From Phycisphaerae bacterium (GTDB lineage Bacteria; Planctomycetota; Phycisphaerae; Sedimentisphaerales; Anaerohalosphaeraceae): a DNA stretch of 64,000 nt. This document shows, one piece after another, positions 1 through 49,422 of the stretch (the stretch's first letter is position 1; every line of letters starts with the position of its first letter). The translations under genes and the position numbers were made by a program. The notes below the pieces were generated by a model. That model saw nothing but the letters and a program-made list of their open reading frames with translations, was not told where the DNA came from and did no database searches. The DNA lies in contig JAGPMT010000001.1 of the NCBI GenBank assembly GCA_018052735.1, positions 124,001-188,000 on the forward strand, read 5' to 3'.

Positions 1-691
1 GATCCTGCAGACCAATAAGCCAATGTGGGGCCCCATCGGCAGGTGTGCCGAAGCAGCGAATATTGCCGCCGATATCAACCATTCCTCCGCGCAGGCCGGC
101 TTTTTGAAGAATTTCAACGGCCTTATCAACCGCATAGCCCTTGGCAATCCCGCCTAAATCGAGGAACATTCCCTCTTTAGTGAAACGCACTGTGCGGTTT
201 TGCGCATCTAAAATAAGGTTGCCGTAACCCACCCGTTCCTTAGCCGCCTCTAACTGCTGGGGCGCGGGGGCAGCGCCGGTTACCCTGGCCTGTCTCCATA
301 TCTGCACGACCGGTCCGACGGTAATATCAAACGCCCCTTCTGAAAGCCGACTGTATTCAACCGCAGCAGCCAGCACTTCAAACAATTCTGCATCCACCTC
401 TACGGGCGATTCAAACGCCTCCCTGTTGACCTTCGACAGGAGGGAGTTGGGGTCGTAATCGCTCATCCGCTTTTCAATGTCGTATATTTTCTCAAAGGCG
501 GCTTCTATCGCTTTTAGACCATCCGATGGTCTTTCTGTGACAACAACAATGCGGGCGATGGTTCCCATCGTCATCCGCCAGCCGCTGCCAATCGCTACAG
601 GGCGGTCCTTGAACGCTGCCCACAAAAGAGCGGCAGCCGCAAATAGTCCGATAACAGCTTGAACTGATTTCCTTGTTCGTTCTTGAAGCAT
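1..691 (-). CDS. apbE: FAD:protein FMN transferase (ApbE family), C-terminus cut by window edge
   Basis: ApbE proteins transfer FMN from FAD to a Ser/Thr of exported redox proteins. The frame is open to the left edge, so only the first 230 residues are present. A hydrophobic segment at about residues 9-26 suggests a membrane anchor or signal peptide. Family landmarks follow: MTMGTIARIVV near residue 40, MSDYDPNSLLSKVN, the GAFDITVGPVVQIW segment, and the flavin-site motif DLGGIAKGYAVD starting at Asp178. The ATG at 691 has an AGGA 7 bases upstream. It is divergent from the radical SAM gene at 757. A second ApbE domain lies at 38.2-39.1 kb. The family call is firm; the protein substrate is unknown. 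Confidence 0.93.
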   Translation of the reverse strand, partial: MLQERTRKSVQAVIGLFAAAALLWAAFKDRPVAIGSGWRMTMGTIARIVVVTERPSDGLKAIEAAFEKIYDIEKRMSDYDPNSLLSKVNREAFESPVEVDAELFEVLAAAVEYSRLSEGAFDITVGPVVQIWRQARVTGAAPAPQQLEAAKERVGYGNLILDAQNRTVRFTKEGMFLDLGGIAKGYAVDKAVEILQKAGLRGGMVDIGGNIRCFGTPADGAPHWLIGLQD

Positions 692-27751: not shown

Positions 27752-28897
27752 TCAGTTGACTCTAAACCAGCCGCTGCAGCGGATCGATAATTCTTCACCG
27801 TTTTTGAGGGTAAGTATCATCTCATCCGTGATATACCGTTGGGCACCTTGAGCGGGCGGGGTAATTTTGACCATTAGTTTGATGTTATTGCCATCCGGCT
27901 CTTGGCTTTCAATGGTCATATAACCCTGACGGGATTGAACAGAAGCGATCTCCACTTTCTCACCGTAATTGCTTCGGATGATAACATCCTTAATAACCGG
28001 AACTTGGGGTTCGACATTCTGCAGGATAATCCGCGGACGTGAGACCTCATATTTAGGCTGGGCTGCATAGTGCACTACCAGCGTACCGGACTGGGGATGG
28101 TCTGTTGTGATCTGAATAACCCCTGTGGTGTACTGCTGCAGCTTATCCAAGGCAACCACCGGCTCCAGAACAAACTCTTTCTTCTTTACGCCGGGATCAA
28201 AATCAATCTTCATCACATCGTTGGGTATTGATATTGAGCGAATAGAGAAAGACTGTTCATCTAAACTTTTGACAATAAGGGAAGGCATTCCTGCATTGGG
28301 TTTATCGAAGCGCAAATCCGCATTTTCAGGGCTAACTGCTATTTTTACAGTTACTTCCGCATTTATAAGCAGTTCGGCTCGCGGTGTAACAGGGTCATTG
28401 GAGATGATATAGAGATGCTTCGTCGTTAAACCCTTTGTAGAAGGTGCTGTAAAAGTCACTTCTACTTTGCCCGACTGGCCAGGTTCGTACAAAACCGGCT
28501 CGCTTAATGGAATCGCAAACCGCTGATCGTTTTTAATCAAAGTCGGCAGAGAGCAGCCGCACGTGCTTTGGACATTGGTTACTGACAAAGGGGCATTGCC
28601 CGAATTACTGAAGGCATATACGGCTTTGTGAACAGAATTTGGACCTACCTGACCGAAATTAACGGAGGGATTTTCGACTTTTATTGAAGGTGCATTGGGG
28701 GCCTGTATCGCCGGAGAAACCGAAGGTCGAGCCGTCTGCCCAACCTGTGTCTGCGGTGCCGGCTCAGTCGTTTTAGGAGCTGGTTCCGTCTTCAATTCTG
28801 CAGTTTTCGTTTCACTCCGCTGGCATCCGGCCAAACTCCCCACAGCCAATACAGCACACAGAATACAAAAAAGTTTGGTAGTGTTATGATATTTCAT
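27752..28897 (-). CDS. DUF1573 lipoprotein
   Basis: 381 residues from ATG 28897, which has GGAAACGGGT upstream. A signal peptide ends in the lipobox LAGC (Cys about 24), followed by a Thr/Pro-rich linker. At about 75-190 is a DUF1573-type immunoglobulin-like domain: VNFGQVGPNSVHKAVYAFSN, STCGC, YEPGQSGKVEVTF, TKHLYIISNDP. More beta domains follow. DUF1573 proteins are abundant in planctomycetes and of unknown function. An in-frame codon at 28990 is upstream and lacks a site. It is close to gsp but terminated separately. Confidence 0.85.
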   Translation of the reverse strand: MKYHNTTKLFCILCAVLAVGSLAGCQRSETKTAELKTEPAPKTTEPAPQTQVGQTARPSVSPAIQAPNAPSIKVENPSVNFGQVGPNSVHKAVYAFSNSGNAPLSVTNVQSTCGCSLPTLIKNDQRFAIPLSEPVLYEPGQSGKVEVTFTAPSTKGLTTKHLYIISNDPVTPRAELLINAEVTVKIAVSPENADLRFDKPNAGMPSLIVKSLDEQSFSIRSISIPNDVMKIDFDPGVKKKEFVLEPVVALDKLQQYTTGVIQITTDHPQSGTLVVHYAAQPKYEVSRPRIILQNVEPQVPVIKDVIIRSNYGEKVEIASVQSRQGYMTIESQEPDGNNIKLMVKITPPAQGAQRYITDEMILTLKNGEELSIRCSGWFRVN

Positions 28898-28983
28898 ACC
28901 CGTTTCCTTTTTAATTCTTTTTGCCCATAATTTCTGTTCAAATAAGCCGATAATGATTTTACAGTTTAGCACAAAACTTTGGA

Positions 28984-29010
28984 TTGACAACTGTGTTTTC
29001 GGTCTATTGC
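28984..29010 (+). promoter_or_regulatory. Possible promoter of the second glycan cluster
   Basis: A perfect TTGACA (28984-28989) is followed by TATTGC at 29005-29010 with a short 15-base spacer. It lies in the only divergent gap (28898-29088) before the plus-strand run 29089-35849. The -10 match and spacing are weak. Confidence 0.25.
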
Positions 29011-37464: not shown

Positions 37465-38238
37465 ATGGTTGAACTTTCTATTATCATTCCAGCCTATAAT
37501 GAAAGCCGAAAAATCGCCGGCGATATTCTGGCGGCTGACCAGTTCTGCATTTCATCCGGTATCGCCGGCCAAATTATCATTGTTGACGACGGCAGCACAG
37601 ACGGCACTGCCGATGCTGCCCGAACAGCCGCAGCACAGATTCGCACGCCATGTCTGGTTGAACAGCTCAAAAGCAATCGGGGCAAGGGTTGTGCCGTACG
37701 AACCGGAATGCTCAAAAGTCAAGGCGCATTTGCCGCCTTTGCCGACAGCGGCTGCTGCGTGCCTTTTTACAAAATCTTAACCGCGCTGGATCTGATCCGT
37801 TCCGGGCAATGCCAGATTGCCCACGGCTCTCGAAAATTATCCGGCGTGCATATTGTGCGTCCCCAATCGGCCTACCGCAAAATCTGCTCTGGACTGTTTC
37901 ACTGGTTTTTGATTCACGACATCAAGCGTCTTGCCAATCTGACCGATACCCAGTGCGGCTTTAAGGTATATCAGGGCGAGGCCGCCCGCCGGATTTATGC
38001 CCAAAGCCGCATTGACGGCTTTATGTTCGATGTAGAAATCATTCTGCTGGCTTTGGCTGCCGGCTACACGATTCGTGAATTTCCGATTGACTGGGCGTGG
38101 GATCCTGACAGCCGCCTTAAACCGGCCCGTGAGGCGATTCGGGTTTTCTGCGACCTTCTGACGCTGAAACGCCGTTTTGCCGACGTTCTCAAAGACAGCG
38201 ACGGCCGTATTGCCCGTGCGCACAGCCCGGTTGGCTAA
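37465..38238 (+). CDS. GT2 glycosyltransferase, ALG5-like, with altered DxD motif
   Basis: 257 residues. LSIIIPAYNESRKIAGDI, QIIIVDDGSTDGTADAA and NRGKGCAVRTGML match dolichyl-phosphate beta-glucosyltransferase-like enzymes; DTQCGFKVYQGEAARRIY and FDVEIILLALAAGYTIREFPIDW complete the pattern. At the place of the usual DAD it reads FADSGCCVPF, so the second Asp of DxD is replaced by Gly. The enzyme may bind metal differently or be inactive. Overlaps convergently with the next gene by four bases. Confidence 0.82.
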   Translation: MVELSIIIPAYNESRKIAGDILAADQFCISSGIAGQIIIVDDGSTDGTADAARTAAAQIRTPCLVEQLKSNRGKGCAVRTGMLKSQGAFAAFADSGCCVPFYKILTALDLIRSGQCQIAHGSRKLSGVHIVRPQSAYRKICSGLFHWFLIHDIKRLANLTDTQCGFKVYQGEAARRIYAQSRIDGFMFDVEIILLALAAGYTIREFPIDWAWDPDSRLKPAREAIRVFCDLLTLKRRFADVLKDSDGRIARAHSPVG

Positions 38239-40718
38239 TCTTTCGGCCATTGGCCCAATTGCAGAAGCTCCGTCCGGCCATTCGGCTCAATGAGAACAGC
38301 CATTATGGAAATTCCGTCTACTGTTTCATAAAGGGCTTTTAGTTTCTCAATAGGCAAAATCATAGCAGCCGTTGAAAGCGCATCGGCCAAGGCGGCATTC
38401 GGACCCAATCGAATCCAGCAGGCCCGCCGATCTGCAACAGGCTGGCCGGTAAAGGGGTTGATAATATGGCTGCCCCGCAAAAGCCCCGAACAGCTCAGCG
38501 CTTCATTGGCCATTGCCAGACGGGCGACAATTGTTTCATCGGCCGGATTGGTCAGCGTAACCTTCCAGCCGCTTTGTCCCTGCGGGGCATCCAGAGCCAG
38601 CACGGAACTGGTTCCGGCATGGATGAATGAACGGCTGATGCCCCATTCCTTTAAAATGCGGCCGGCCGCATCTACAGCATAACCTTTTCCGATGCCGCCT
38701 AAATCGATATAGACTCCCTCGCCCAGCAGGCCGACGCTGCACGTCTGCGGATGCAGCTCCAGCATCGCCATTGAGGGCCGCTGTCTCAGCAGTTCGGCTG
38801 CCTGCTGACTGTCTTGCTTTTTCCAGACCTCAATCATTCTGCCGATCGTGACATCAAATGCCCCTCCTGTCAATTCCCACGCTTGTTTGGCGGCTGCCAG
38901 ACAGTTCAATGTATCCTCATCTACTGCCGCTGTTTGTCCCGGCTGGAGCCGGTTAATCCGGCTGATGTCGCTGTTTTCCACAAACCGGCTCAACTGGGCT
39001 TCCAGACGATCGATTTCTCTAAATGCTGCCCGGGCCGCACGGCCGGCATATGTACCGTCCGTATGCTGGATAAAAATCTCAAACGTCGTATTCATTGCCT
39101 GATGGCTGAATTTGAGAAGATTGGCAATCTGGGTCTTATCAGGTCGGCTTTGCATCAGCATTGGCTCCTCTGATGTATCGGAAAGGATCGGCGAAACAGA
39201 AAACATTTTATCCCACTGGTCTTTACGAATATAGCCCCGCCATTCAACACCCGGACGAAGCCAGCAGGCTTTATCAAACAAGGGCAGATACAAATGGCGC
39301 TGACCGGCCGGCGGAACTGAGTACAGCAGATTCAGCAGTTCCCGCTCGTGCCGGGCTTGAGCAAGGATAAGCGGCACATCACAAACAGAAGGATCAGGAT
39401 GATTCCAGTACCCTACTTTGGAAAAGCTCCGCAGATACCACGGCAGCGGCCAATAATCATCTCCGGCGGCTATAACAGAAATCGGTGTTTGGGTGTCGGC
39501 AGCTGTTTGGACCTGTCGAACCATTTCAAAAACATCCTCACTGGTGTGGGCATACACATAAGGATTAATCGGATCAGACGCATACCGAAAATTAAGAAAC
39601 CAGCTCTGTACAACCGGACTGGCCAGCCCGTAAAGTCCCAGCAGTGTCCAGAACACAAACTTCGACCAGCATCCCTGAACCGCATCGAGCAGCCGATCGG
39701 CAGTAAAACCGGCCAGCAGCGCCAGTCCATAAACAAAACCCATCATATTCCACGGCGTTTTATAGGGAATAGCACAATACACCACCGTTAGAAACAGTGT
39801 ATAAATCGCCACAAATCGAGCTGCTTGAACATGCAGGCTGTTATTTTGAAAAAATACAGCAGCGGCTCCTATAAGCCCCAGTGCTGCAATGCCGTCTTCA
39901 TTCCATGTGATCGGCTCAAGAAATTCAATCCACGTCAGCAGATCCAAATAATAATACCACGGATGGCTGTGAACACTGCTGCTGCCGGCACGCTGGAACC
40001 AGCCAGCATAGGCTGCAAAAGAATCGCCAATCCCCTGCCAGTTGCTGCCGAATGAGGAATAAAACATCGTCGATATTGCAGCCGCTGTGCAGAATCCGGC
40101 CAGCAGATGCCATCCTTTGCACCGGCCGGTACCTGTCCAGATGGTATACAGCACAGCACAAGCACCTGCGCCCGCTGCAAAGACAAATGTTTCTTTGGTT
40201 GTGTGCATTAGTCCCAAAGCAACACCGGCCAGAATTACCCAGTAAAGTTTTTGGCAATGCAGATAACGCCAGACAGCACCGAGGAAAACGGCACTAAAAA
40301 ACAGCAGCAGAATTTCCTGAATATAGTAGCGGCTGTAATAAATGAACAAAGGAGAAAACGCCAGCAAGATACAGCCGAAGAAAGCTGCCCGCCATCCGAG
40401 GCCTTGGACAAAAAACAACGGCGTCAGAATCAGCGCAATACCAAAAACAGCAGGTACCAGCCGCAGTGTAACTTCGCTGATATTTTCATACGTATGCTCC
40501 CCCCGCAGCCAAGCGCTGAGAAGCGTAAAATAATTCAGGGTTGGTCCGTGAAATTCATCGGGATCATAACAATAGAGGCCCTTCTCGAGAAGGGCCCCGA
40601 ATTTTTCAGCATGAACCGCCTCATCCGCATGCATTGGCCGGTCAGCCAGCCGCCACAGGCGAAAAGCCGCTGCCCCAGCCAGCACCACCAGCAGAATCGG
40701 GATGACCGCCGTTTTCAT
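38235..40718 (-). CDS. Agl23-like (TIGR03663/PMT-type) membrane protein fused to a complete ApbE domain
   Basis: 827 residues in one uninterrupted frame. Residues 1 to about 520 are a polytopic GT39/PMT-like protein: DRPMHADEAVHAEKFG in the first loop with acidic residues, PLFIYYSRYYIQE, TTKETFVFAAGAG, then IPYKTPWNMMGF and a soluble end LRPGVEWRGYIRKDQW, as in Agl23 proteins. A linker leads to ApbE (about 538-820): MNTTFEIFI from Met542, RLEAQLSRFVENSDISRIN, GGAFDVTIGRMIEVWK, DLGGIGKGYAVD at 672-683, SHIINPFTGQPV and ADALSTAAM. All usual ApbE motifs are present. It starts three bases after the lipoprotein stop. The fusion should place ApbE outside the cytoplasm. Its role is unknown. Confidence 0.88.
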   Translation of the reverse strand: MKTAVIPILLVVLAGAAAFRLWRLADRPMHADEAVHAEKFGALLEKGLYCYDPDEFHGPTLNYFTLLSAWLRGEHTYENISEVTLRLVPAVFGIALILTPLFFVQGLGWRAAFFGCILLAFSPLFIYYSRYYIQEILLLFFSAVFLGAVWRYLHCQKLYWVILAGVALGLMHTTKETFVFAAGAGACAVLYTIWTGTGRCKGWHLLAGFCTAAAISTMFYSSFGSNWQGIGDSFAAYAGWFQRAGSSSVHSHPWYYYLDLLTWIEFLEPITWNEDGIAALGLIGAAAVFFQNNSLHVQAARFVAIYTLFLTVVYCAIPYKTPWNMMGFVYGLALLAGFTADRLLDAVQGCWSKFVFWTLLGLYGLASPVVQSWFLNFRYASDPINPYVYAHTSEDVFEMVRQVQTAADTQTPISVIAAGDDYWPLPWYLRSFSKVGYWNHPDPSVCDVPLILAQARHERELLNLLYSVPPAGQRHLYLPLFDKACWLRPGVEWRGYIRKDQWDKMFSVSPILSDTSEEPMLMQSRPDKTQIANLLKFSHQAMNTTFEIFIQHTDGTYAGRAARAAFREIDRLEAQLSRFVENSDISRINRLQPGQTAAVDEDTLNCLAAAKQAWELTGGAFDVTIGRMIEVWKKQDSQQAAELLRQRPSMAMLELHPQTCSVGLLGEGVYIDLGGIGKGYAVDAAGRILKEWGISRSFIHAGTSSVLALDAPQGQSGWKVTLTNPADETIVARLAMANEALSCSGLLRGSHIINPFTGQPVADRRACWIRLGPNAALADALSTAAMILPIEKLKALYETVDGISIMAVLIEPNGRTELLQLGQWPKD

Positions 40719-40721
40719 GGA

Positions 40722-41483
40722 CTACTTGCCGTATACTTCTACCTCGATGTAGTGGCTGTAGTCGTTCTGATTGTTGGCCTGACTGTATAGACGGACATAC
40801 CGGGCTTTGGTGCCTTTGGCATCGACCAGTTTGCCTTCGGCTTTATCAATGTAGTGCATATCCTTTCCGGCGCCCAATCCGAGCGAATTATCCGTGTCGT
40901 TGTTGAACAGAGTTGTTACACCCATCGCAAACTCCGGATCATCAGAGACCTGCACCACGACATCAAAATACACCCGCGGGGTCTTGTGGTAATGCCAAAA
41001 GACAATCGCATAAAGATTGTAAGACTGGCCTAAATCAACCTGTACCCACTGCTTAAACGGCCCAAGTTCAATCACACTGCCTTCGGCAGCATCCTTATCG
41101 CCGTCCACCAGCATCGACAGCTCACCTGTTATGGGTTCCATTTCTGAGCTTGTTACCGGTTTGTTCAGTGCCAGATTCTTGACTCCTTCGGGAACATAAA
41201 AAACGGGCCGCGGACCTTTGGTATCCGGTTCCAGATTTTCGATCCCGGCCAAATTCTCCGGCGTGCCTACAAACATCGGCTTGGGCAGCTCCAGCGGCAG
41301 CGGAACCATTTTTTCTTCGGACTTTGGAGCAGCACTATCGGAGGCAGCTGGCTGGGCCGGATCCGCTTGCTGAACATCCGAAGTCTGCGGCTGTGAAGGA
41401 GACTGCGGCGCCTCAGCAGGGGCCTGCTTCCTGCAGCCAGCCCAAACCAGTGTTACGACAATCAAAAACAGTATGCGTTTCAT
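40722..41483 (-). CDS. Lipoprotein with discoidin (F5/8 type C)-like domain
   Basis: 253 residues. MKRILFLIVVTLVWAGC is a lipoprotein signal with Cys17, followed by a Pro/Gln/Ala linker. The domain at about 105-250 has LALNKPVTSSEM, VDGDKDAAEGS, FKQWVQVDLGQSYNLYAIVFWHY and KARYVRLYSQ, the pattern of carbohydrate-binding discoidin domains. ATG 41483 has GGAG upstream; an in-frame GTG at 41495 does not. Its place in the oxidoreductase run suggests glycan binding at the cell surface. Confidence 0.85.
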   Translation of the reverse strand: MKRILFLIVVTLVWAGCRKQAPAEAPQSPSQPQTSDVQQADPAQPAASDSAAPKSEEKMVPLPLELPKPMFVGTPENLAGIENLEPDTKGPRPVFYVPEGVKNLALNKPVTSSEMEPITGELSMLVDGDKDAAEGSVIELGPFKQWVQVDLGQSYNLYAIVFWHYHKTPRVYFDVVVQVSDDPEFAMGVTTLFNNDTDNSLGLGAGKDMHYIDKAEGKLVDAKGTKARYVRLYSQANNQNDYSHYIEVEVYGK

Positions 41484-41507
41484 CGACAACTCCACAATAA
41501 AACAATA

Positions 41508-42698
41508 TTAACCTGCAATTCCTTTGAGTTTACCCAAAATGATTGCTAAAACAATCAAAATCCCGCAGGCCGGCAGCAGCAGTTTGAGGCTTTTTTGAAT
41601 GGATGCACCTTTGGCAGCATTACCGAGGGCTTTGGGAACAATAACCCCGCCGGCCAATCCGATAGCAAATATGATACCAAACAGACTTCCGTAAACATCC
41701 GGTTTGAATTTTGAGAACGTTACTCCAACCGTCGTCGGAAAACAAGGTGCAAACGACAGCCCCGCCAAGACTGCCAGCAGGGCCGCCTGTGTACCCTTGG
41801 AACAGCTCATCATCAGGAAAATGACCACGCCGGCAACCACAGCCGCCGCTGCAATAACCCAGCCGCCATTGGCTGTCAGGTCAAAATTGAGCCGGCCCGG
41901 CAGAAGTCCGGTTGCCAGTCGTCCGACCATCATCGCAATGGCAAAATAGGACAGCAAGCGCTGCCCCGATACATCTGCTTCAGCGGTATCGATCGAGGGA
42001 TTTTCCTTTTTGACCACCTCTTTTCCGAATGAGGGAAGCCAGTTGCAGAACGATGATTCCAGTGCAATATAGCAAAATAGAACAACAGCTGCCGCCAGTA
42101 CTGCCGGCTGACCCAGCAGCTTGACGGCTGCCGCGATATCCAGTTTTGCGCTGCTGGAAGGATAGTTGGCTGCCATCAGAGCCACAATGGCCGGCAGAAT
42201 GACAATAATGCCCAGCACAGAGACTGCTTTCTCATAACTGGTTTGCCGAAACAGAAAACTGACAATTAGGGGCGTCAGAAACAGGCCCAATCCGAAAAAC
42301 ACATTGGCCACATTGCTGGCTGCCGCCGGATCTTTGCCGCCGAAAAGCACCTGCGGGGCCATTACATTGCCGGCCGTATTCAGGGCCATCGCTCCGAAGC
42401 CCAGCAGCAGACAGGGCAGCAGTACAGCCATGTAATTTTTGCCTGTCGCCAAAATGAAAATGCAGATTGCCGTCAGGACAAACCCGAGAATTGCAATCCA
42501 CTTGTAGCCGATCGCGTCGGTCACAATCCCGACAACCAGCGAGGCGACCAGACAGGCAAACATAAACCCAGAAATCAGTGTCCCAAACCGGCTTTCATCG
42601 ATATTGACCCGGGGCATCAGCTTCACACTAATGGAACCCAGCAGTGAAAAACATACACCCAAGCCGAACACGCACATTAAAGCGACTGCCTGTACCAT
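41508..42698 (-). CDS. Major facilitator superfamily transporter
   Basis: 396 residues with about 12 membrane segments. The loop after segment 2 has IVTDAIGYKWIAILG, a degenerate MFS motif A, and the second half repeats a similar pattern (MMVGRLATGLL). It most resembles the sugar-proton symporter side of MFS (FucP/NarK-like size), but the substrate cannot be read. ATG 42698 has AAGGAG 8 bases upstream; an upstream TTG at 42716 is rejected. Its neighbours suggest import of an oxidised sugar. Confidence 0.88.
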   Translation of the reverse strand: MVQAVALMCVFGLGVCFSLLGSISVKLMPRVNIDESRFGTLISGFMFACLVASLVVGIVTDAIGYKWIAILGFVLTAICIFILATGKNYMAVLLPCLLLGFGAMALNTAGNVMAPQVLFGGKDPAAASNVANVFFGLGLFLTPLIVSFLFRQTSYEKAVSVLGIIVILPAIVALMAANYPSSSAKLDIAAAVKLLGQPAVLAAAVVLFCYIALESSFCNWLPSFGKEVVKKENPSIDTAEADVSGQRLLSYFAIAMMVGRLATGLLPGRLNFDLTANGGWVIAAAAVVAGVVIFLMMSCSKGTQAALLAVLAGLSFAPCFPTTVGVTFSKFKPDVYGSLFGIIFAIGLAGGVIVPKALGNAAKGASIQKSLKLLLPACGILIVLAIILGKLKGIAG

Positions 42699-42734
42699 AC
42701 TCACACTCCTTTCCAATCGACATCCTGCATTATT

Positions 42735-43400
42735 TTACAGCGATTGTGATTCTGCCTTCATATCCCGAAGGACTTCCATTCGAATCAGCATATACAATTG
42801 TGTGATGGCTGCAAGTGAAAAAACCAATGCACACCATTGATGCACCTTGGCCAGAAAAGTCTGTCCGTCAGTTCCCACCCACGGCAGCATGCTCAGCACC
42901 GGCGCCAATATCAGCGGCAATCCAGCAGCGGCTAAAAACCAGAAACCTATTTTTACTCCAATACCGCTGTCGGTCAGCCAGCAGCGTCCAGACCCTGCCC
43001 CAGCACAGGCCAAAATTGCGGGCGCATCGGCCCTGTTAAAGGCGTATCGTCCTGCAGCCAGCAGTACAACCACTGCCGCACAAACAGCAAAAACCGGCGC
43101 CGCCGTCATATGAATCATTAGAAGCCATCCTTCCAGATGTCCGCCGCATAAAAGCGGGCCGAAACCCGTCAGCGCCAGCACCGCAAAGCAAAGCAGCCCG
43201 AGAAGAAACGCCAGTTTGCAGATGCGTCCGGCCCAGCCCATCGTTTGCGGCAGAAACAGCAGTGTCAGGAGGTGCACAAGTTTGCGAATCACAGACCGTA
43301 CAGCGAAACGGGGGTTATAGCCGCAGGGGAAAACCAGATGGTGCAGTGCCAGCGCCGCAGCTGCGGCGGCAAATCCAAACAGACAAATCCATCGAAACAT
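42735..43400 (-). CDS. Membrane cytochrome b-like protein
   Basis: 221 residues with about five hydrophobic segments. Histidines sit at membrane positions suited to haem: ALHHLVF, KLVHLLTL, GGHLEGWLLMIHMTAAP and KVHQWCALVF. The HxxGWxLMxH segment resembles cytochrome b subunits of formate dehydrogenase and related quinone-linked complexes. Its ATG overlaps the stop of the seven-haem cytochrome gene by one base, pointing to a two-protein complex that could link periplasmic haems to menaquinone. Identity as haem protein is inferred. Confidence 0.68.
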   Translation of the reverse strand: MFRWICLFGFAAAAAALALHHLVFPCGYNPRFAVRSVIRKLVHLLTLLFLPQTMGWAGRICKLAFLLGLLCFAVLALTGFGPLLCGGHLEGWLLMIHMTAAPVFAVCAAVVVLLAAGRYAFNRADAPAILACAGAGSGRCWLTDSGIGVKIGFWFLAAAGLPLILAPVLSMLPWVGTDGQTFLAKVHQWCALVFSLAAITQLYMLIRMEVLRDMKAESQSL

Positions 43401-45229
43401 CAGTCTTCCTCCCTGCCAAATGCCTTCGTCAGGGCCGCTGCTGCTTTAAGAAGCCAAGCCACTACGACTAATCCGATCAATCCGCAGGCGGCAAAGGCAA
43501 CTGTTTTGAGCATCGGCCGAAATACGAAGGCAAAGTTAAATACCCGCATATACAGCCGGTTGATGCCCTGAAGCTGAACCATTTCTGCAAACTCCGGCCC
43601 GCCTTCGATTTGAACCGGTGTATCAATCTGCACTTTTCCGAAGAAAAAGGCCGAATCGGTCGTGTGGCAGTCTTTGCATTGGCGAATCCCCATCGCCTGC
43701 CGGGCGGGTCGGACATCATGAGCCATCGGCCAGGCATAGGGGTTGGCCGCCGGATGGGCAACCGTTTCCAGTTCGCCCGCGTCATTGAGACGATAGAGTT
43801 TCCCGCCGGCAACATAAACGGCGGGCTTCTGGTCTGTACTTAACAGAGCCAGAACCTCGGCAATTTCCTGCGGAGTTAAAGGCCGCCAGTCGTCCACCCG
43901 CTCGACTTCCTTGTCCAGAATAGTACGGGCTTTCTGGAGTACCTCTTTGGGAGCAAAGGGCTTGACAGTATCGTTTTCAAACAGTGCCCAATAGGCCGGC
44001 CAGAATAATTTATAGGGGCCGATTTTACCATCCGTTCCCTTCATCAAAACCGGTGCATAGATATGCGGCTGGCGAATGTCAAGGTTGTGTTTTCCATGCA
44101 GACCAACCCTGTGAATACGGGCTGTTTTCCACCGTCCGGCCTGTTCCTCCGGCCAAGTAGCCGAATGGCAGGCCGTGCAGGTGAGTTTTTCAAAATGAAT
44201 GACGGGAATGCCAGCGTGCCGCGGCCGCGGAGCGCCAAGCCGGCCATCTTCGGGGGCCCCTGTTTTATCCCTGCCCAAATGACAGCCCTCACATGTCAGC
44301 GATGCGCCGGGGCCTTGGGCTTCATATCCTCGATTAATCCGGTGGTCATCGCCGTTTCGATGACAATCTACGCAATGGAGACCGGATGCCAAATGCACAT
44401 CGTCGTCGCGAGTGAATTCGGCCTCCTGTCCAATCCGTAAATCGATATTGGAATGGCAGAAATAGCATCGCTGGTCAAGCGGTTTTGAGGAAATGTCGAA
44501 AAAGACCATATCATCTTTATCGAACAGACCCGTCCGCCACGTGATTTCCACGCCTTTGTCAAATTCGGGATCAAAAAAATCATCCAGCGAGGAAGCCACC
44601 CCATTGACGACGGCCAATCCGCTGGAGGCCGTAGGAATCCAGCGAAAGTTCTGACGGGCGGCCTGCAGGGCGGCCAAGCTCTGGTCTTCCTGCGGGCTGG
44701 CATTATGACAGGCCAGGCAGTTAATCTCATAGTCCCCGCTGATTTGCTTGCGAATCGCCACGGCCGGGTCGGCTGAAGGCATCTGCCCATAGCTGCCGCC
44801 GGGAAAATGGCTGAAAAATGTGTTGACAAAATCCCACGGCGAAAGCCCTACTTGTTCGGGAGCGAATGTTTGCGGCCAATGACGGGCTGTAACTGGTATC
44901 TGGGTGCGGGTTTTGACATCTGTCAGCACCCACGGCTGTCCGGGGCGGCCCGAATCGACCTGCGGATCATGGGCATTAAAATGCCAGCCCTGAGCTATTT
45001 GGTCATAGTTGTGGCATTGGCCGCAGGTCTGCTTGGTTGAAAACGGTCTGGGCTTTGCGTCCTTGGCACGAATCCGGTTGCCGTCGTGGTCGTATAACTC
45101 AATTAAATGCACCGGCCGGCTTCGGTTGCCGTCGTTGCCTTCGCCCAGCAGTTTTTCGTTTTCGTCAGCACAAACGGCCGGAGTCAATAAAGCTGCAGCC
45201 ATCGCCGCCAGCAGCAGAAGTCGGAACAT
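43400..45229 (-). CDS. Seven-haem cytochrome c with C-terminal membrane anchor
   Basis: 609 residues from ATG 45229, where AGGA stands 9 bases upstream (45238 is an alternative). A signal peptide ends near AVCA. Seven CxxCH haem sites begin at Cys69 (CGQCH), 171 (CLACH), 255 (CYFCH), 286 (CVDCH), 313 (CEGCH), 351 (CTACH) and 518 (CKDCH). A single membrane segment (about 578-600) anchors it to the inner membrane. I do not recognise a named family. The cytochrome b gene follows directly. It probably carries electrons across the periplasm; direction cannot be told from sequence. Confidence 0.9.
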   Translation of the reverse strand: MFRLLLLAAMAAALLTPAVCADENEKLLGEGNDGNRSRPVHLIELYDHDGNRIRAKDAKPRPFSTKQTCGQCHNYDQIAQGWHFNAHDPQVDSGRPGQPWVLTDVKTRTQIPVTARHWPQTFAPEQVGLSPWDFVNTFFSHFPGGSYGQMPSADPAVAIRKQISGDYEINCLACHNASPQEDQSLAALQAARQNFRWIPTASSGLAVVNGVASSLDDFFDPEFDKGVEITWRTGLFDKDDMVFFDISSKPLDQRCYFCHSNIDLRIGQEAEFTRDDDVHLASGLHCVDCHRNGDDHRINRGYEAQGPGASLTCEGCHLGRDKTGAPEDGRLGAPRPRHAGIPVIHFEKLTCTACHSATWPEEQAGRWKTARIHRVGLHGKHNLDIRQPHIYAPVLMKGTDGKIGPYKLFWPAYWALFENDTVKPFAPKEVLQKARTILDKEVERVDDWRPLTPQEIAEVLALLSTDQKPAVYVAGGKLYRLNDAGELETVAHPAANPYAWPMAHDVRPARQAMGIRQCKDCHTTDSAFFFGKVQIDTPVQIEGGPEFAEMVQLQGINRLYMRVFNFAFVFRPMLKTVAFAACGLIGLVVVAWLLKAAAALTKAFGREED

Positions 45230-45247
45230 CGTACCCATTCCTGATCC

Positions 45248-46603
45248 TTACGCACGGAATTCTTCCGGCTTGAATTCAAGCCGGCAGGCCTTTTCAACCG
45301 CTTCATTAACCTTCAGCACGGTAACTGCCGTTTCAAAGCCGACCTCTGCCGGACAGTTGAGTTTTTCCCGCCCGCGAATGGCATTAAAAAAGTTCATCAG
45401 ATGCGGCTGATGATACGGCACATCCATCGTCACAGGGATTTTGTATTCGGCTACCGCCACACTGCCTTCCCGGACATCCAGCACGGCTTCATCGTCTTTC
45501 TTTTCTGCCGGGGCTGTCTGGACCTTGCGAATCAGACCCTGCTTGACAATCGGTTCCCATTCTTCTTCCAGCACCCAGTTTTCGCGATACACACTGCCGC
45601 GGCCGGCAGATTCGGAAATCATCAGCGTTCCACGGTCGCCCATAAAGCATTCATAATAGCCGTTGGCGCTGTTGGTGGTGGATGTCTGGTACATCGCCCG
45701 CACCGGTCCATCGGGTGTTTCATATTCATAGACAGCCATCACGCTGTCGTACCATTCGTGAGCTTTCCAGTAGTCGATGCCGCCGCTGGCTATAACTGTC
45801 TTCGGATTGCAGCCCAAATACCAGCTGTAAATATCAATTTGATGACTACCCAGATCCACTATCGGGCCGCCGCCCAAGCCCTTGAACCATCGCCAGTTCA
45901 TAAACTGGTGCATATTCTTAAAGCCGTATTTATTCAGCGTGGCCTCGTCAATTTCGGCTCCTTCAGGGGCAGCGAGGTCTTCGCAGGAGGCCTTGCTGCG
46001 GTTCCACTGACCATTGATGGTTGTGATGCGGCCGATGAGCTTGGCACCGCGGATAAGCTTGTCGTAGCAGTATTGATAGCGGGGATTGCTGCGCCGCTGG
46101 TGACCAATCTGCAGAAGCTTGCCGCTGGCCTTCTGGGCTTCAACCATTTTGCGGGCGCCTTCAATGGTATTGCTCATTTCTTTTTCGCAGTACACATGCA
46201 GACCCTTGGCCAGACAGGCACAGGCATGCTCCGAATGCCAGAAATCCGGCGTGGCAATAATCACCGCATCCAAATCCTTTTCCTTATCGAGCATTTCTTT
46301 GTAGTCGGTATAGGCGGTTCCTTTGTATCCCAGACTTTCCCATGCCTTCAGCCGGCGGGATACCTTGCGGAGATTGACCTGCTCCCAAATATCGCAGACA
46401 GCAATAAACCGAATATTCGGATCTTTGGCCTTCATCACTGCATCCATCAGCACCTGTCCCTGCGTGCCGGCGCCCAGCAGTGCCACATTAATCACATCAC
46501 TGCTGCCGGAATCTGCCCCCAGTGCTTTTCCGCTGACATACAATCCGGCACCGAGTGCCGCGGTTGTGCGAATAAACTCTCTGCGATTCAATCCTTTTTG
46601 CAT
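45248..46603 (-). CDS. Tat-exported Gfo/Idh/MocA oxidoreductase
   Basis: 451 residues. Tat leader NRREFIRTTAALGAGLYVSG. Rossmann motif VALLGAGTQGQVLM at about 40, AVIIATPDFWHSEHACACL, and CEKEMSNT where many relatives have EKP. The catalytic region is GGGPIVDLGSHQIDIYSWYLG, with a likely active-site His in the usual SHxxD position. Family members oxidise or epimerise sugars with bound NAD(P); Tat export implies folding with cofactor before export, as in Zymomonas glucose-fructose oxidoreductase. First of four such enzymes in the run and next to the multihaem cytochrome. Confidence 0.92.
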   Translation of the reverse strand: MQKGLNRREFIRTTAALGAGLYVSGKALGADSGSSDVINVALLGAGTQGQVLMDAVMKAKDPNIRFIAVCDIWEQVNLRKVSRRLKAWESLGYKGTAYTDYKEMLDKEKDLDAVIIATPDFWHSEHACACLAKGLHVYCEKEMSNTIEGARKMVEAQKASGKLLQIGHQRRSNPRYQYCYDKLIRGAKLIGRITTINGQWNRSKASCEDLAAPEGAEIDEATLNKYGFKNMHQFMNWRWFKGLGGGPIVDLGSHQIDIYSWYLGCNPKTVIASGGIDYWKAHEWYDSVMAVYEYETPDGPVRAMYQTSTTNSANGYYECFMGDRGTLMISESAGRGSVYRENWVLEEEWEPIVKQGLIRKVQTAPAEKKDDEAVLDVREGSVAVAEYKIPVTMDVPYHQPHLMNFFNAIRGREKLNCPAEVGFETAVTVLKVNEAVEKACRLEFKPEEFRA

Positions 46604-46626: not shown

Positions 46627-48033
46627 TCAGTTTAGTTCTCTGATTTTGATATTGCGATACCAAATATCCGTCCCGTGATCCTGCAGGCCGATGAATCCCC
46701 GGCGGGGCAGATCTTTATAGGCGATGTCAAATTTATTGGCCGAGCCGTCCGGATTTTTGTGCGGCTCTGTCCAGTCGTCAAGGTCTATATCGATAATCAG
46801 ATGACCGTTAAGCACAACCCACAGACGCGATCCTTTTTCGGTTAGGGTCATTCGATTCCACTGGCCAACAGGCCGGACGGCATTGACCGTCGGCTCTTTG
46901 ACATCATAAATACTTCCGCAGATGTGCCGGCTGAGCGGCTGGCCGAAGGTATCTGCTATCTGCACTTCAACCCACGGCAGCCATTCATGATTGCCGGCCC
47001 TCAGAAAAACACCGCTGTTGCTGCCTTTGGCCAGCTTGAATTCCAAATCCAAAATAAAATCGCTGTATTGAGCCTTTGTCCAGATGTCTTTGCTGCCCTT
47101 AACCACTGTCAGGACACCTTCGTCCCAGTACCAGCCCTTTTCCTGAAAATCTGCATTGGAAAGGTCTGCCGCAAACAGGTCTTTCCATCCGGTCGGCTTT
47201 AATTGGGAGCCAACAGCATTAAAATAGGCCACTGATTGGCGAATTTCAGGGACATTGTTGTCCCAATTGTATTCATACTCTATCGAAAAAGTCCCCTGAT
47301 ACCCTTGTCTGTGCAGTTCTTCGAGAATCGCCTTGATGCGTCCCTGCCCAGTACCCCAAATAACATCATGGCCTTCATCGATTTCCTTGATATGAACTTC
47401 GCGAATCCGGCCTTCAAGTTTTTTAAGACACTCCACCGGATCCAAGCCGCTTCGCACCCAATGGCCAACATCAGCACAAGCCCCAATCCAACTGCTTCGG
47501 TTCCGGCAGACAGCCAGCACGGTGTCCGGATTCCAGTATTTCGAAGGTTTGGGATGATTATGCACTGCCAGCTTAATGCTGTATTCGGCACAGAGTTTGT
47601 CTATCAAGTCAAATTGGTCCGCCTCGGGTTCCGAAACAATCGTCTCAATCCCCATTTCTTTGGCAAATTCATAGAGCTTGCGGGCGGCAGCCTCATCTTT
47701 GGGAATGCTGGTCACGCCGAAAGCAAAAATGCCGATGCCTGATTCCGCCAGTTTGTCTTTAACCTGCTGCCGCTGTTCGGGTGAAAGGTTCTGGTCAAAA
47801 CCTGTCGTCAAAGTATCGGAAATCCGCTGACCTGGATAGGCCTGAATCCAGTTAAGTCCCAGTGAACGGGTTTTATCAACCGCCTCAAACAGCGTAAAAC
47901 GGTTAAACGACCAAGTCTGCACACCCAGCCGCCATCCCTCATAGGCCTGCGGGTCAGCGTGCTGTGCCGGCGATTCGGCTAAAATCTGTCCGATGATCAG
48001 GCAAGTAAGGATTGCCAGTGTTATTTTGGCCAT
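46627..48033 (-). CDS. TIM-barrel sugar isomerase-type domain fused to DUF1080
   Basis: 468 residues with a signal peptide (TLAILTCLIIGQILA). Residues about 35-270 are an AP-endonuclease-2-like TIM barrel with metal ligands in IVSEPEAD, ACADVGHW, VHIKEID and FSIEYEY. Residues about 285-468 are a DUF1080/PF06439 domain (GWKDLFAADLSNADF, FILDLEFKLAKGSNSGVFLRA, FIGLQDHG), a family now linked to hydrolysis of 3-keto-glycosides. One secreted protein may thus both cleave and isomerise a keto sugar. AAGGAA precedes the ATG. Confidence 0.88.
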   Translation of the reverse strand: MAKITLAILTCLIIGQILAESPAQHADPQAYEGWRLGVQTWSFNRFTLFEAVDKTRSLGLNWIQAYPGQRISDTLTTGFDQNLSPEQRQQVKDKLAESGIGIFAFGVTSIPKDEAAARKLYEFAKEMGIETIVSEPEADQFDLIDKLCAEYSIKLAVHNHPKPSKYWNPDTVLAVCRNRSSWIGACADVGHWVRSGLDPVECLKKLEGRIREVHIKEIDEGHDVIWGTGQGRIKAILEELHRQGYQGTFSIEYEYNWDNNVPEIRQSVAYFNAVGSQLKPTGWKDLFAADLSNADFQEKGWYWDEGVLTVVKGSKDIWTKAQYSDFILDLEFKLAKGSNSGVFLRAGNHEWLPWVEVQIADTFGQPLSRHICGSIYDVKEPTVNAVRPVGQWNRMTLTEKGSRLWVVLNGHLIIDIDLDDWTEPHKNPDGSANKFDIAYKDLPRRGFIGLQDHGTDIWYRNIKIRELN

Positions 48034-48060: not shown

Positions 48061-49422
48061 TTAGAGATGCCACCTTTCCCGATACGGCGGGTTGACATAT
48101 TTATCAAGGTCCGGCATATTCGGCGACTTCATTGTTTCGCCGTCCCAGAGAATCTTCTGGCCGGGCTTGAACAGGCACAGATTGCCCATCAGCACCATCT
48201 CGGTAAACGGGCCGGCATAGTCAAAATCGCAGCTGGCCTTTTTGCCTTCTTTGATAGCATTGACCCAGTTCATCTCGTGGCTGGTCTGCACCCGCGGCAG
48301 GGTTTTTGGCGGCCGCTTGTATTCCTGCATCCGGCTGTAGGGAATCAGCTGCGGGGCTTTCCCATAGCAGCCGCACATCAATTTGCCCTTGTCGCCGACA
48401 AACAGCACGCCGCCGTCATTGTCGCCCATCCGCCGCCCTTCTTCCAGCTCCTCCGGCCGTTCCGGCATCAATCCGCCGTCATACCAGTGCACTTTGACCG
48501 CCGGCATCCCTTCCCGTGCCGGATAGTCCAGATGAATGATCGAGCCCAGCGGATACGATTCGGCAACATCCTGCTTTTTCCACTTTTCAATTACATTGGC
48601 TACATAACTGCCCTGCACGCTGACGGGATACTTAAGCTTCAAAGCCCAGAATACGGGGTCTAAAATATGGCAGGCCATATCGCCCAGTGCTCCGGTTCCA
48701 AAATCTACCCACGCTCGCCAGTTCCATGGATGATACGCCGGATGATAGGGTCGGTATGGGGCCGGGCCCAGCCATAAATCCCAATCAAGGGTATCCGGCA
48801 CAGGCGGCGTTTCCGACGGCCGGTCCAAACCCTGCGGCCAGACCGGACGGTTGGTCCAGGCATGCACTTCCCGCACGTCACCGATGGCGCCGTCCCAAAT
48901 CCATTCGCAAATCAGGCGGATGCCTTCGTCGCTGTGTCCCTGATTGCCCATTTGGGTTATCACTCCGTATTTGCGAGCCGCTTCCGTCAGCATTCGCGCT
49001 TCATAGACCGTCTTGGTCAGGGGTTTTTGGACATAGACGTGCTTGCCGCGCTTCATACATTCCATTGCAATGCAGGCATGGGTATGGTCAGGCGTAGCAA
49101 TGATAACCGCATCAATCTCCTTGCCCATCTCTTCGAGCATCACACGATAATCCTTATACCGCTTGGCCTGCGGATACTTCTCAAATGTTCCCTTGGCATA
49201 ATTCCAGTCCACATCGCACAAAGCAACGATGTTCTCTGTGCCGGCTACTGCATTCAGATTGCCTTGCCCCATTCCGCCAACGCCCACCCCGGCAATATTC
49301 AACCGGCGGCTGCCGGCAGAGCCGGACGGGGCCATACCCAAAACGGTGCGAGGAAAAAAAGGAAATGCGGCAGCGGCGGCCGACGATTGCAAAAAAAGTC
49401 TGCGATTCAATTGCTTTTTCAT
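48061..49422 (-). CDS. Tat-exported Gfo/Idh/MocA oxidoreductase
   Basis: 453 residues. Leader NRRLFLQSSAAAAAFPFFP is a Tat-type signal. Rossmann motif IAGVGVGGMGQGN; IIATPDHTHACIAMECM; VQKPLTKTVYEA in place of EKP, a variant common in exported members. GTGALGDMACHILDPVFWAL carries the active-site region, and LDWDLWLGPAPYRPY is typical of the planctomycete/Bacteroidetes exported subfamily. It ends in NPPYRERWHL, similar to the enzyme at 52305, which ends in SYRAPWHL. Likely substrate is a sugar or glycoside. Confidence 0.92.
   Translation of the reverse strand: MKKQLNRRLFLQSSAAAAAFPFFPRTVLGMAPSGSAGSRRLNIAGVGVGGMGQGNLNAVAGTENIVALCDVDWNYAKGTFEKYPQAKRYKDYRVMLEEMGKEIDAVIIATPDHTHACIAMECMKRGKHVYVQKPLTKTVYEARMLTEAARKYGVITQMGNQGHSDEGIRLICEWIWDGAIGDVREVHAWTNRPVWPQGLDRPSETPPVPDTLDWDLWLGPAPYRPYHPAYHPWNWRAWVDFGTGALGDMACHILDPVFWALKLKYPVSVQGSYVANVIEKWKKQDVAESYPLGSIIHLDYPAREGMPAVKVHWYDGGLMPERPEELEEGRRMGDNDGGVLFVGDKGKLMCGCYGKAPQLIPYSRMQEYKRPPKTLPRVQTSHEMNWVNAIKEGKKASCDFDYAGPFTEMVLMGNLCLFKPGQKILWDGETMKSPNMPDLDKYVNPPYRERWHL

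Follow-up and report, generated by a model that had tools for sequence, protein, structure and literature searches.

The gene under study occupies positions 38235–40718 of the minus strand in a 64,000-nucleotide window (the whole stretch of Phycisphaerae DNA analysed), where it closes a run of minus-strand genes and faces a glycosyltransferase gene on the opposite strand. The features are as follows.

48061–49422, minus strand: second TAT-signal Gfo/Idh family protein, assigned by similarity, at the head of the run
46627–48033, minus strand: protein with a TIM barrel and a 3-keto-disaccharide hydrolase (DUF1080) domain
45248–46603, minus strand: TAT-signal Gfo/Idh oxidoreductase of a cassette-specific subfamily, GFOc
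43400–45238, minus strand: seven-haem cytochrome c, 612 residues, haem motifs at 72, 174, 258, 289, 316, 354 and 521, C-terminal hydrophobic stretch
42735–43400, minus strand: small cytochrome b-like membrane protein, 221 residues, two conserved histidines (at about 97 and 187)
41508–42716, minus strand: MFS transporter
40722–41495, minus strand: F5/8 type C (discoidin-like) lipoprotein, 257 residues, PF00754/PF22633 above cut-off
38235–40718, minus strand: fused gene, 827 residues, Agl23-like GT-C protein (about residues 1–520) joined to ApbE (about 535–827)
39159–40718, minus strand: its GT-C/TIGR03663 half, 11 predicted transmembrane helices (TMs) and a C-terminal soluble domain with WPLPWYLR
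38238–39125, minus strand: its ApbE half, with Ser744, His751, Asp779, Thr783, the aromatic Phe579 and the cassette-specific invariant Cys606
37465–38238, plus strand: convergent GT2, whose best NCBIfam match, PpgS (polyprenyl-phospho-sugar synthase), is weak and below cut-off

The eight minus-strand genes between 49422 and 38235 are spaced by −1 to 27 bp and therefore probably form one operon. As the initial annotation had it, the fused gene ends a run that encodes a seven-haem cytochrome and a cytochrome b; its upstream neighbours, from the F5/8 lipoprotein to the Gfo/Idh gene, lie on the same strand at spacings of −1 to 18 bp. The cytochrome b-like protein (42735–43400) has no Pfam or NCBIfam match and is conserved across the cassette, with a weak Ferric_reduct match in one relative. 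The F5/8 profile has no match in the PDB. At the transporter position, the MFS protein here and an NCS1-type permease (PF02133; L036:6145–7509) in relatives replace each other. Elsewhere in the window, a DUF1573 Ig-like domain protein (27752–28990, minus strand) is encoded near an asparagine-synthase-like amidotransferase region.

Translation of the minus strand of 38235–40718 gives 827 codons in one frame without a stop, as previously described, although the strand had not been stated. Both domain assignments also hold. The NCBIfam profile TIGR03663 (Agl23) matches residues 9–433 with 171–172 bits, above its curated threshold of 126 (126.25) bits, in agreement with the proposed PMT/Agl23-like half. 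PF02424 (ApbE) matches residues 542–800 with E = 5e-51 and 174 bits, covering positions 1–258 of the 266 in the profile (curated cut-off 25.6 bits), and all the motifs cited for a complete ApbE domain (DLGGIGKGYAVD, HIINPFTG and ADALST) are present. Structure prediction from the single sequence gave no usable model (mean pLDDT 38.5).

According to a review of ApbE, the conserved catalytic residues of this enzyme are Ser, His and Asp. Ser744, His751 and Asp779 align with the catalytic Ser241, His257 and Asp285 of Vibrio cholerae ApbE (6nxi). At the position that stacks on the flavin, an aromatic residue marks the flavin-binding transferase type and a polar one the FAD pyrophosphatase type; judged by sequence alignment, Phe579 occupies this position (Y60 in E. 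coli), and 43 of 43 ApbE homologues have Phe or Tyr there. The ApbE half is thus predicted, from its aligned residues, to be an FAD:protein FMN transferase with intact catalytic residues. It shares with V. cholerae ApbE and E. coli Ftp (4xgv; PF02424) the full domain, the catalytic Ser/His/Asp, the metal-site Asp/Thr and the aromatic stacking residue. Unlike them, it is fused to an 11-TM GT-C protein, its unfused cassette counterparts carry no export signals, and it has a cassette-specific cysteine: Cys606 (codon 38901–38903) is invariant in 44 of 44 cassette ApbEs, where exported-type ApbEs have Val or Leu. Cassette ApbEs are richer in cysteine overall. Among the ApbE homologues aligned, the catalytic His is replaced only in L040 (11267–12145) and L049 (8876–9754), split ApbEs of genus g2 that carry Asp instead, which may be a sign of decay after separation; all fused forms keep the catalytic residues.

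Turning to the other half, all 32 Agl23-like members scanned match TIGR03663, and D32-E33, H57-G58-P59 and YKTPW are invariant in the 32 homologues. Hydropathy averaged over 51 homologues gives 11 helices followed by a soluble C-terminal region, with long loops after TM1 (65 residues) and TM7 (53 residues). The acidic DE motif, D32-E33, lies in the first loop on the outer side, following TM1; DE motif and helix number agree with the GT-C definition of a DE motif with at least 11 TMs. Lys and Arg are more frequent in the even-numbered short loops than in the odd-numbered ones; the difference is modest and, together with the 11 helices, favours a topology with the N-terminus predicted inside and the C-terminus outside. 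Yeast Pmt1 was the only solved relative found, through a weak profile match (E = 0.013). Taken with the family and the motif, that match makes sugar transfer by the GT-C half a reasonable inference. Compared with the flippase activity-associated Agl23 family (TIGR03663) and PMT_2 of the GT-C clan, the protein scores above cut-off and shares the DE and HGP motifs and the 11 helices, but it differs in having a C-terminal enzyme domain and in sitting in a redox cassette. A further parallel is provided by the TMTC proteins, GT-C proteins with a lumenal C-terminal TPR domain (PMC7801869): both have an 11-TM GT-C core, a long TM7–TM8 loop and an extra C-terminal domain, which consists of TPR repeats in TMTC and of a predicted FMN transferase here.

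Is the fusion real, and does it recur? We searched 118 relatives and found fused Agl23-like and ApbE proteins in 16 genomes of 6 genera, which rules out an assembly or sequencing join. Mapped on a tree of the Agl23-like half, the fused state requires four changes, of which well supported branches force three; the fusion has therefore arisen at least three times. Elsewhere in the class the two genes are unfused. They are neighbours as a rule, and several pairs overlap by 4 bp. Relatives thus often keep two genes, as the initial annotation had considered, yet fusions recur among them. Since the genes of split pairs are found in all three relative frames, stop-codon readthrough does not explain the split pairs. 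In the fused proteins the linkers are 22–29 residues long and contain no additional TM. Close fused pairs give dN/dS of about 0.09–0.28 in both halves, and purifying selection acts on both. These observations bear on whether the fusion is a fortuitous, functionally neutral joining of two neighbours. The two genes lie side by side, in some cases in frame, and losing one stop codon would then be enough to fuse them; set against this are the three or more origins, the intact catalytic residues in every fused form, the selection on both halves and the loss of the catalytic His in the split ApbEs of the two unfused genus g2 relatives instead. We regard a neutral fusion as very improbable. The fusion is nevertheless secondary, and the main fact is the conserved gene cassette in which it sits. 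No description of the ApbE–Agl23 fusion or of the cassette was found in the open-licence PMC papers.

The cassette is conserved across the bacterial class. A common order emerges from the neighbourhoods of about 70 homologous loci, with gene calls that are simple open frames backed by profiles and with some of the public genomes incomplete: TAT Gfo/Idh, seven-haem cytochrome c, small cytochrome b and an MFS/NCS1-type transporter, and then F5/8-type lipoprotein, Agl23-like protein and ApbE, often with a GT2 nearby. It consists of two parts. The first is a glycan pair of lipoprotein and Agl23-like protein. In most homologous loci the Agl23-like gene is immediately preceded by the F5/8 lipoprotein gene. 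This also applies to Hydrogenedentota, where the pair, often with an adjoining GT2, occurs with ApbE and cytochromes nearly always absent. A scan of genome contigs yielded a single Hydrogenedentota locus. In one locus of the Hydrogenedentota group (L115), a single Agl23-like gene is preceded by five F5/8-type lipoprotein genes in tandem, which suggests that these lipoproteins are clients of the Agl23-like protein.

The second part is a redox part, and it is with this part that ApbE travels. ApbE is present in 26 of 26 loci with GFOc as opposed to 10 of the 32 others (Fisher 1.2e-8), and in 29 of 31 loci with cytochromes as opposed to 7 of the remaining 27 (Fisher 7.9e-8), the rows of both tests being related loci. 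Seen the other way round, the 36 loci with ApbE include 29 with cytochromes and 26 with GFOc, and the 22 without it include 2 and 0, respectively. A tree-based pairing test of ApbE and cytochromes points in the same direction without reaching significance (about 2.4 to 0 independent pairs). The gene arrangement at individual loci follows the same line: ApbE stands among the Gfo/Idh and cytochrome genes, rather than directly after the Agl23-like gene, in L052, L060 and L065, and in L085 it directly follows GFOc at a locus with no Agl23-like gene. The link of ApbE to electron transfer, raised earlier as conceivable, is thus strengthened, in that its presence tracks the cytochromes and the sharply delimited GFOc subfamily.

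Which protein, then, would receive the flavin? At least one FMN_bind protein is encoded in 44 of 54 cassette genomes. The genome studied here has two, both in RNF-type clusters, and its second ApbE, which has an N-terminal membrane segment, adjoins one of the two and lies beside RNF genes that are just outside the window (1–691, minus strand, running past the left edge of the window). From these facts one could argue that the fused ApbE is a further copy loading RnfG/NqrC-type proteins, with the GT-C half as a mere membrane anchor. That reading is improbable in our judgement, given that this genome already possesses an RNF-linked ApbE, that the GT-C half is conserved in its own right and accompanies the lipoprotein where ApbE is absent, and that six cassette genomes (92–100% complete) encode no FMN_bind, DUF2271, NQR2/RnfD (RnfD/NqrB) or DUF3570 protein. 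Five of those six (G042, G152, G310, G316 and G364) encode no ApbE besides that of the cassette, an orphan with respect to the four known substrate families examined. No FMN-binding-domain protein, of the kind suggested earlier as worth seeking near homologues, belongs to the cassette, and several genomes bearing the pair lack the known substrate families. The cassette genomes lacking a known ApbE target point to flavin-carrying proteins of a kind not yet recognised.

A search for the site itself gave no canonical candidate. The pattern D-x-x-[ST]-[GS]-A-[ST] occurs in no protein called at the neighbourhood loci, the canonical D-x-x-[ST]-G-A-[ST] is in no cassette protein, and no [ST]GA[ST]-type site is conserved there. 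When ApbE-bearing loci were compared with the others, neither the F5/8 lipoprotein nor the GT-C half showed a conserved Ser or Thr specific to the former, and both were set aside as ApbE substrates. Ser167-Gly168 of the cytochrome was likewise rejected as an FMN site, since L057, an ApbE-bearing locus, has an Ala substitution there. It could be supposed that ApbE transfers FMN, or another nucleotide part, not to a protein but to the glycan or lipid-linked sugar of the GT-C half. That ApbE is physically joined to what is probably a lipid-linked-sugar enzyme, that the pair is adjacent in most of the class and that no protein has a canonical site would fit this; the existence of ApbE beside GFOc with no GT-C gene, and of the GT-C pair with no ApbE, would not. 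We know of no precedent for such a transfer and consider it highly unlikely.

The side of the membrane on which ApbE acts is where the evidence divides. The initial annotation placed it on the outer face, and the 11-TM topology agrees with that placement, the fused ApbE being membrane-borne through its GT-C half. The unfused cassette ApbEs do not agree: 34 of 35 have neither a signal peptide nor a hydrophobic N-terminus, and these 34 would not be classed as extracytosolic by the signal peptide or lipidation site that the 2021 flavinylation survey (eLife) used, whereas six ApbEs outside the cassette, the one beside the RNF genes of this genome included, all have a signal peptide or an N-terminal helix. 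Without a leader, ApbE would be expected to work in the cytoplasm. Three arrangements would reconcile the two lines of evidence: an inward-facing C-terminus of the Agl23-like protein, export of the leaderless forms together with a partner, or action of fused and leaderless forms on different sides.

A TAT substrate folds in the cytoplasm before export. One may thus picture ApbE acting in the cytoplasm on the TAT-exported Gfo/Idh protein, with the C-terminus of the Agl23-like protein cytoplasmic whether fused or unfused. Besides the missing leaders, this would suit the invariant Cys606 and the cysteine-rich composition relative to the exported type, the TAT signal of GFOc, which is never found without ApbE in the homologous loci, and the repeated fusion, which is easiest if both parts are already on one side. 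The 11 helices, the charge distribution and the analogy with Pmt1 and TMTC (lumenal C-terminal domain) nevertheless put the C-terminus outside, and the short linkers offer no extra TM to bring it back. We consider cytoplasmic action unlikely, though a serious contender.

The reading we prefer, at slightly less than even confidence, is that the cassette ApbE serves as an FMN transferase dedicated to one of the redox proteins of the cassette, which would have a non-canonical site, and that it is held beside a glycosyltransferase. Gfo/Idh enzymes move hydride, i.e., two electrons, and haems take one; it is this mismatch that leads us to GFOc or the cytochrome as the proposed recipient of FMN from ApbE. 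The fused gene product would be a bifunctional membrane protein with a GT-C-like half and an FMN transferase half. The latter would attach FMN at a non-canonical site, the first candidate acceptor being the TAT-exported GFOc and the second the seven-haem cytochrome, and the covalent FMN might serve as a two-electron/one-electron bridge from sugar oxidation to the haems. The GT2 would make a lipid-linked sugar that feeds the GT-C half, which would in turn glycosylate an acceptor in the envelope, the F5/8 lipoprotein being the likeliest; the fusion would keep both modifying enzymes in one place. The gene structure, its conservation, the catalytic residues, the co-occurrence and the orphan status are established by the data, whereas all biochemical activities and both acceptors are what we infer. 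The fuller version, in which FMN is carried by the TAT-exported Gfo/Idh protein or the multihaem cytochrome as a new substrate class and the fused protein also glycosylates the envelope lipoprotein encoded next to it, is a tentative proposal and rather unlikely to hold in every part.

ApbE is known to be fused to other domains in one polypeptide, namely in the trypanosomatid ApbE–fumarate reductase and in ApbE–DUF2271 (PMC12052999, PMC8238504). The partner in those cases is the flavinylated protein, whereas the partner here has no recognisable flavinylation site, and the substrate of the cassette ApbE, unlike those of known ApbEs, probably lies outside the known families. The 2021 flavinylation survey (PMC8238504) reported that about 4% of genomes had an ApbE but no substrate, and such substrates remained unidentified. 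It dropped genes without an export signal, and the unfused cassette ApbEs would consequently have been lost unless an exported target gene adjoined. The LacABC/DUF1080 3-keto-glycoside pathway (PMC9007349) resembles the cassette in combining exported sugar 3-oxidation genes with a 3-keto-glycoside hydrolase; the difference is that the dehydrogenase here is of the Gfo/Idh type and the electron chain comprises a seven-haem cytochrome and a cytochrome b together with ApbE.

In genomes with a single ApbE, the cassette narrows the possible substrates to a few defined candidates, and the question becomes a testable one. If the fuller version of the preferred reading is true, the cassette would encode a covalently flavinylated sugar dehydrogenase–cytochrome chain. 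The findings suggest that, in planctomycetes, glycosylation of the envelope and flavin-based electron transfer are linked both physically and genetically.
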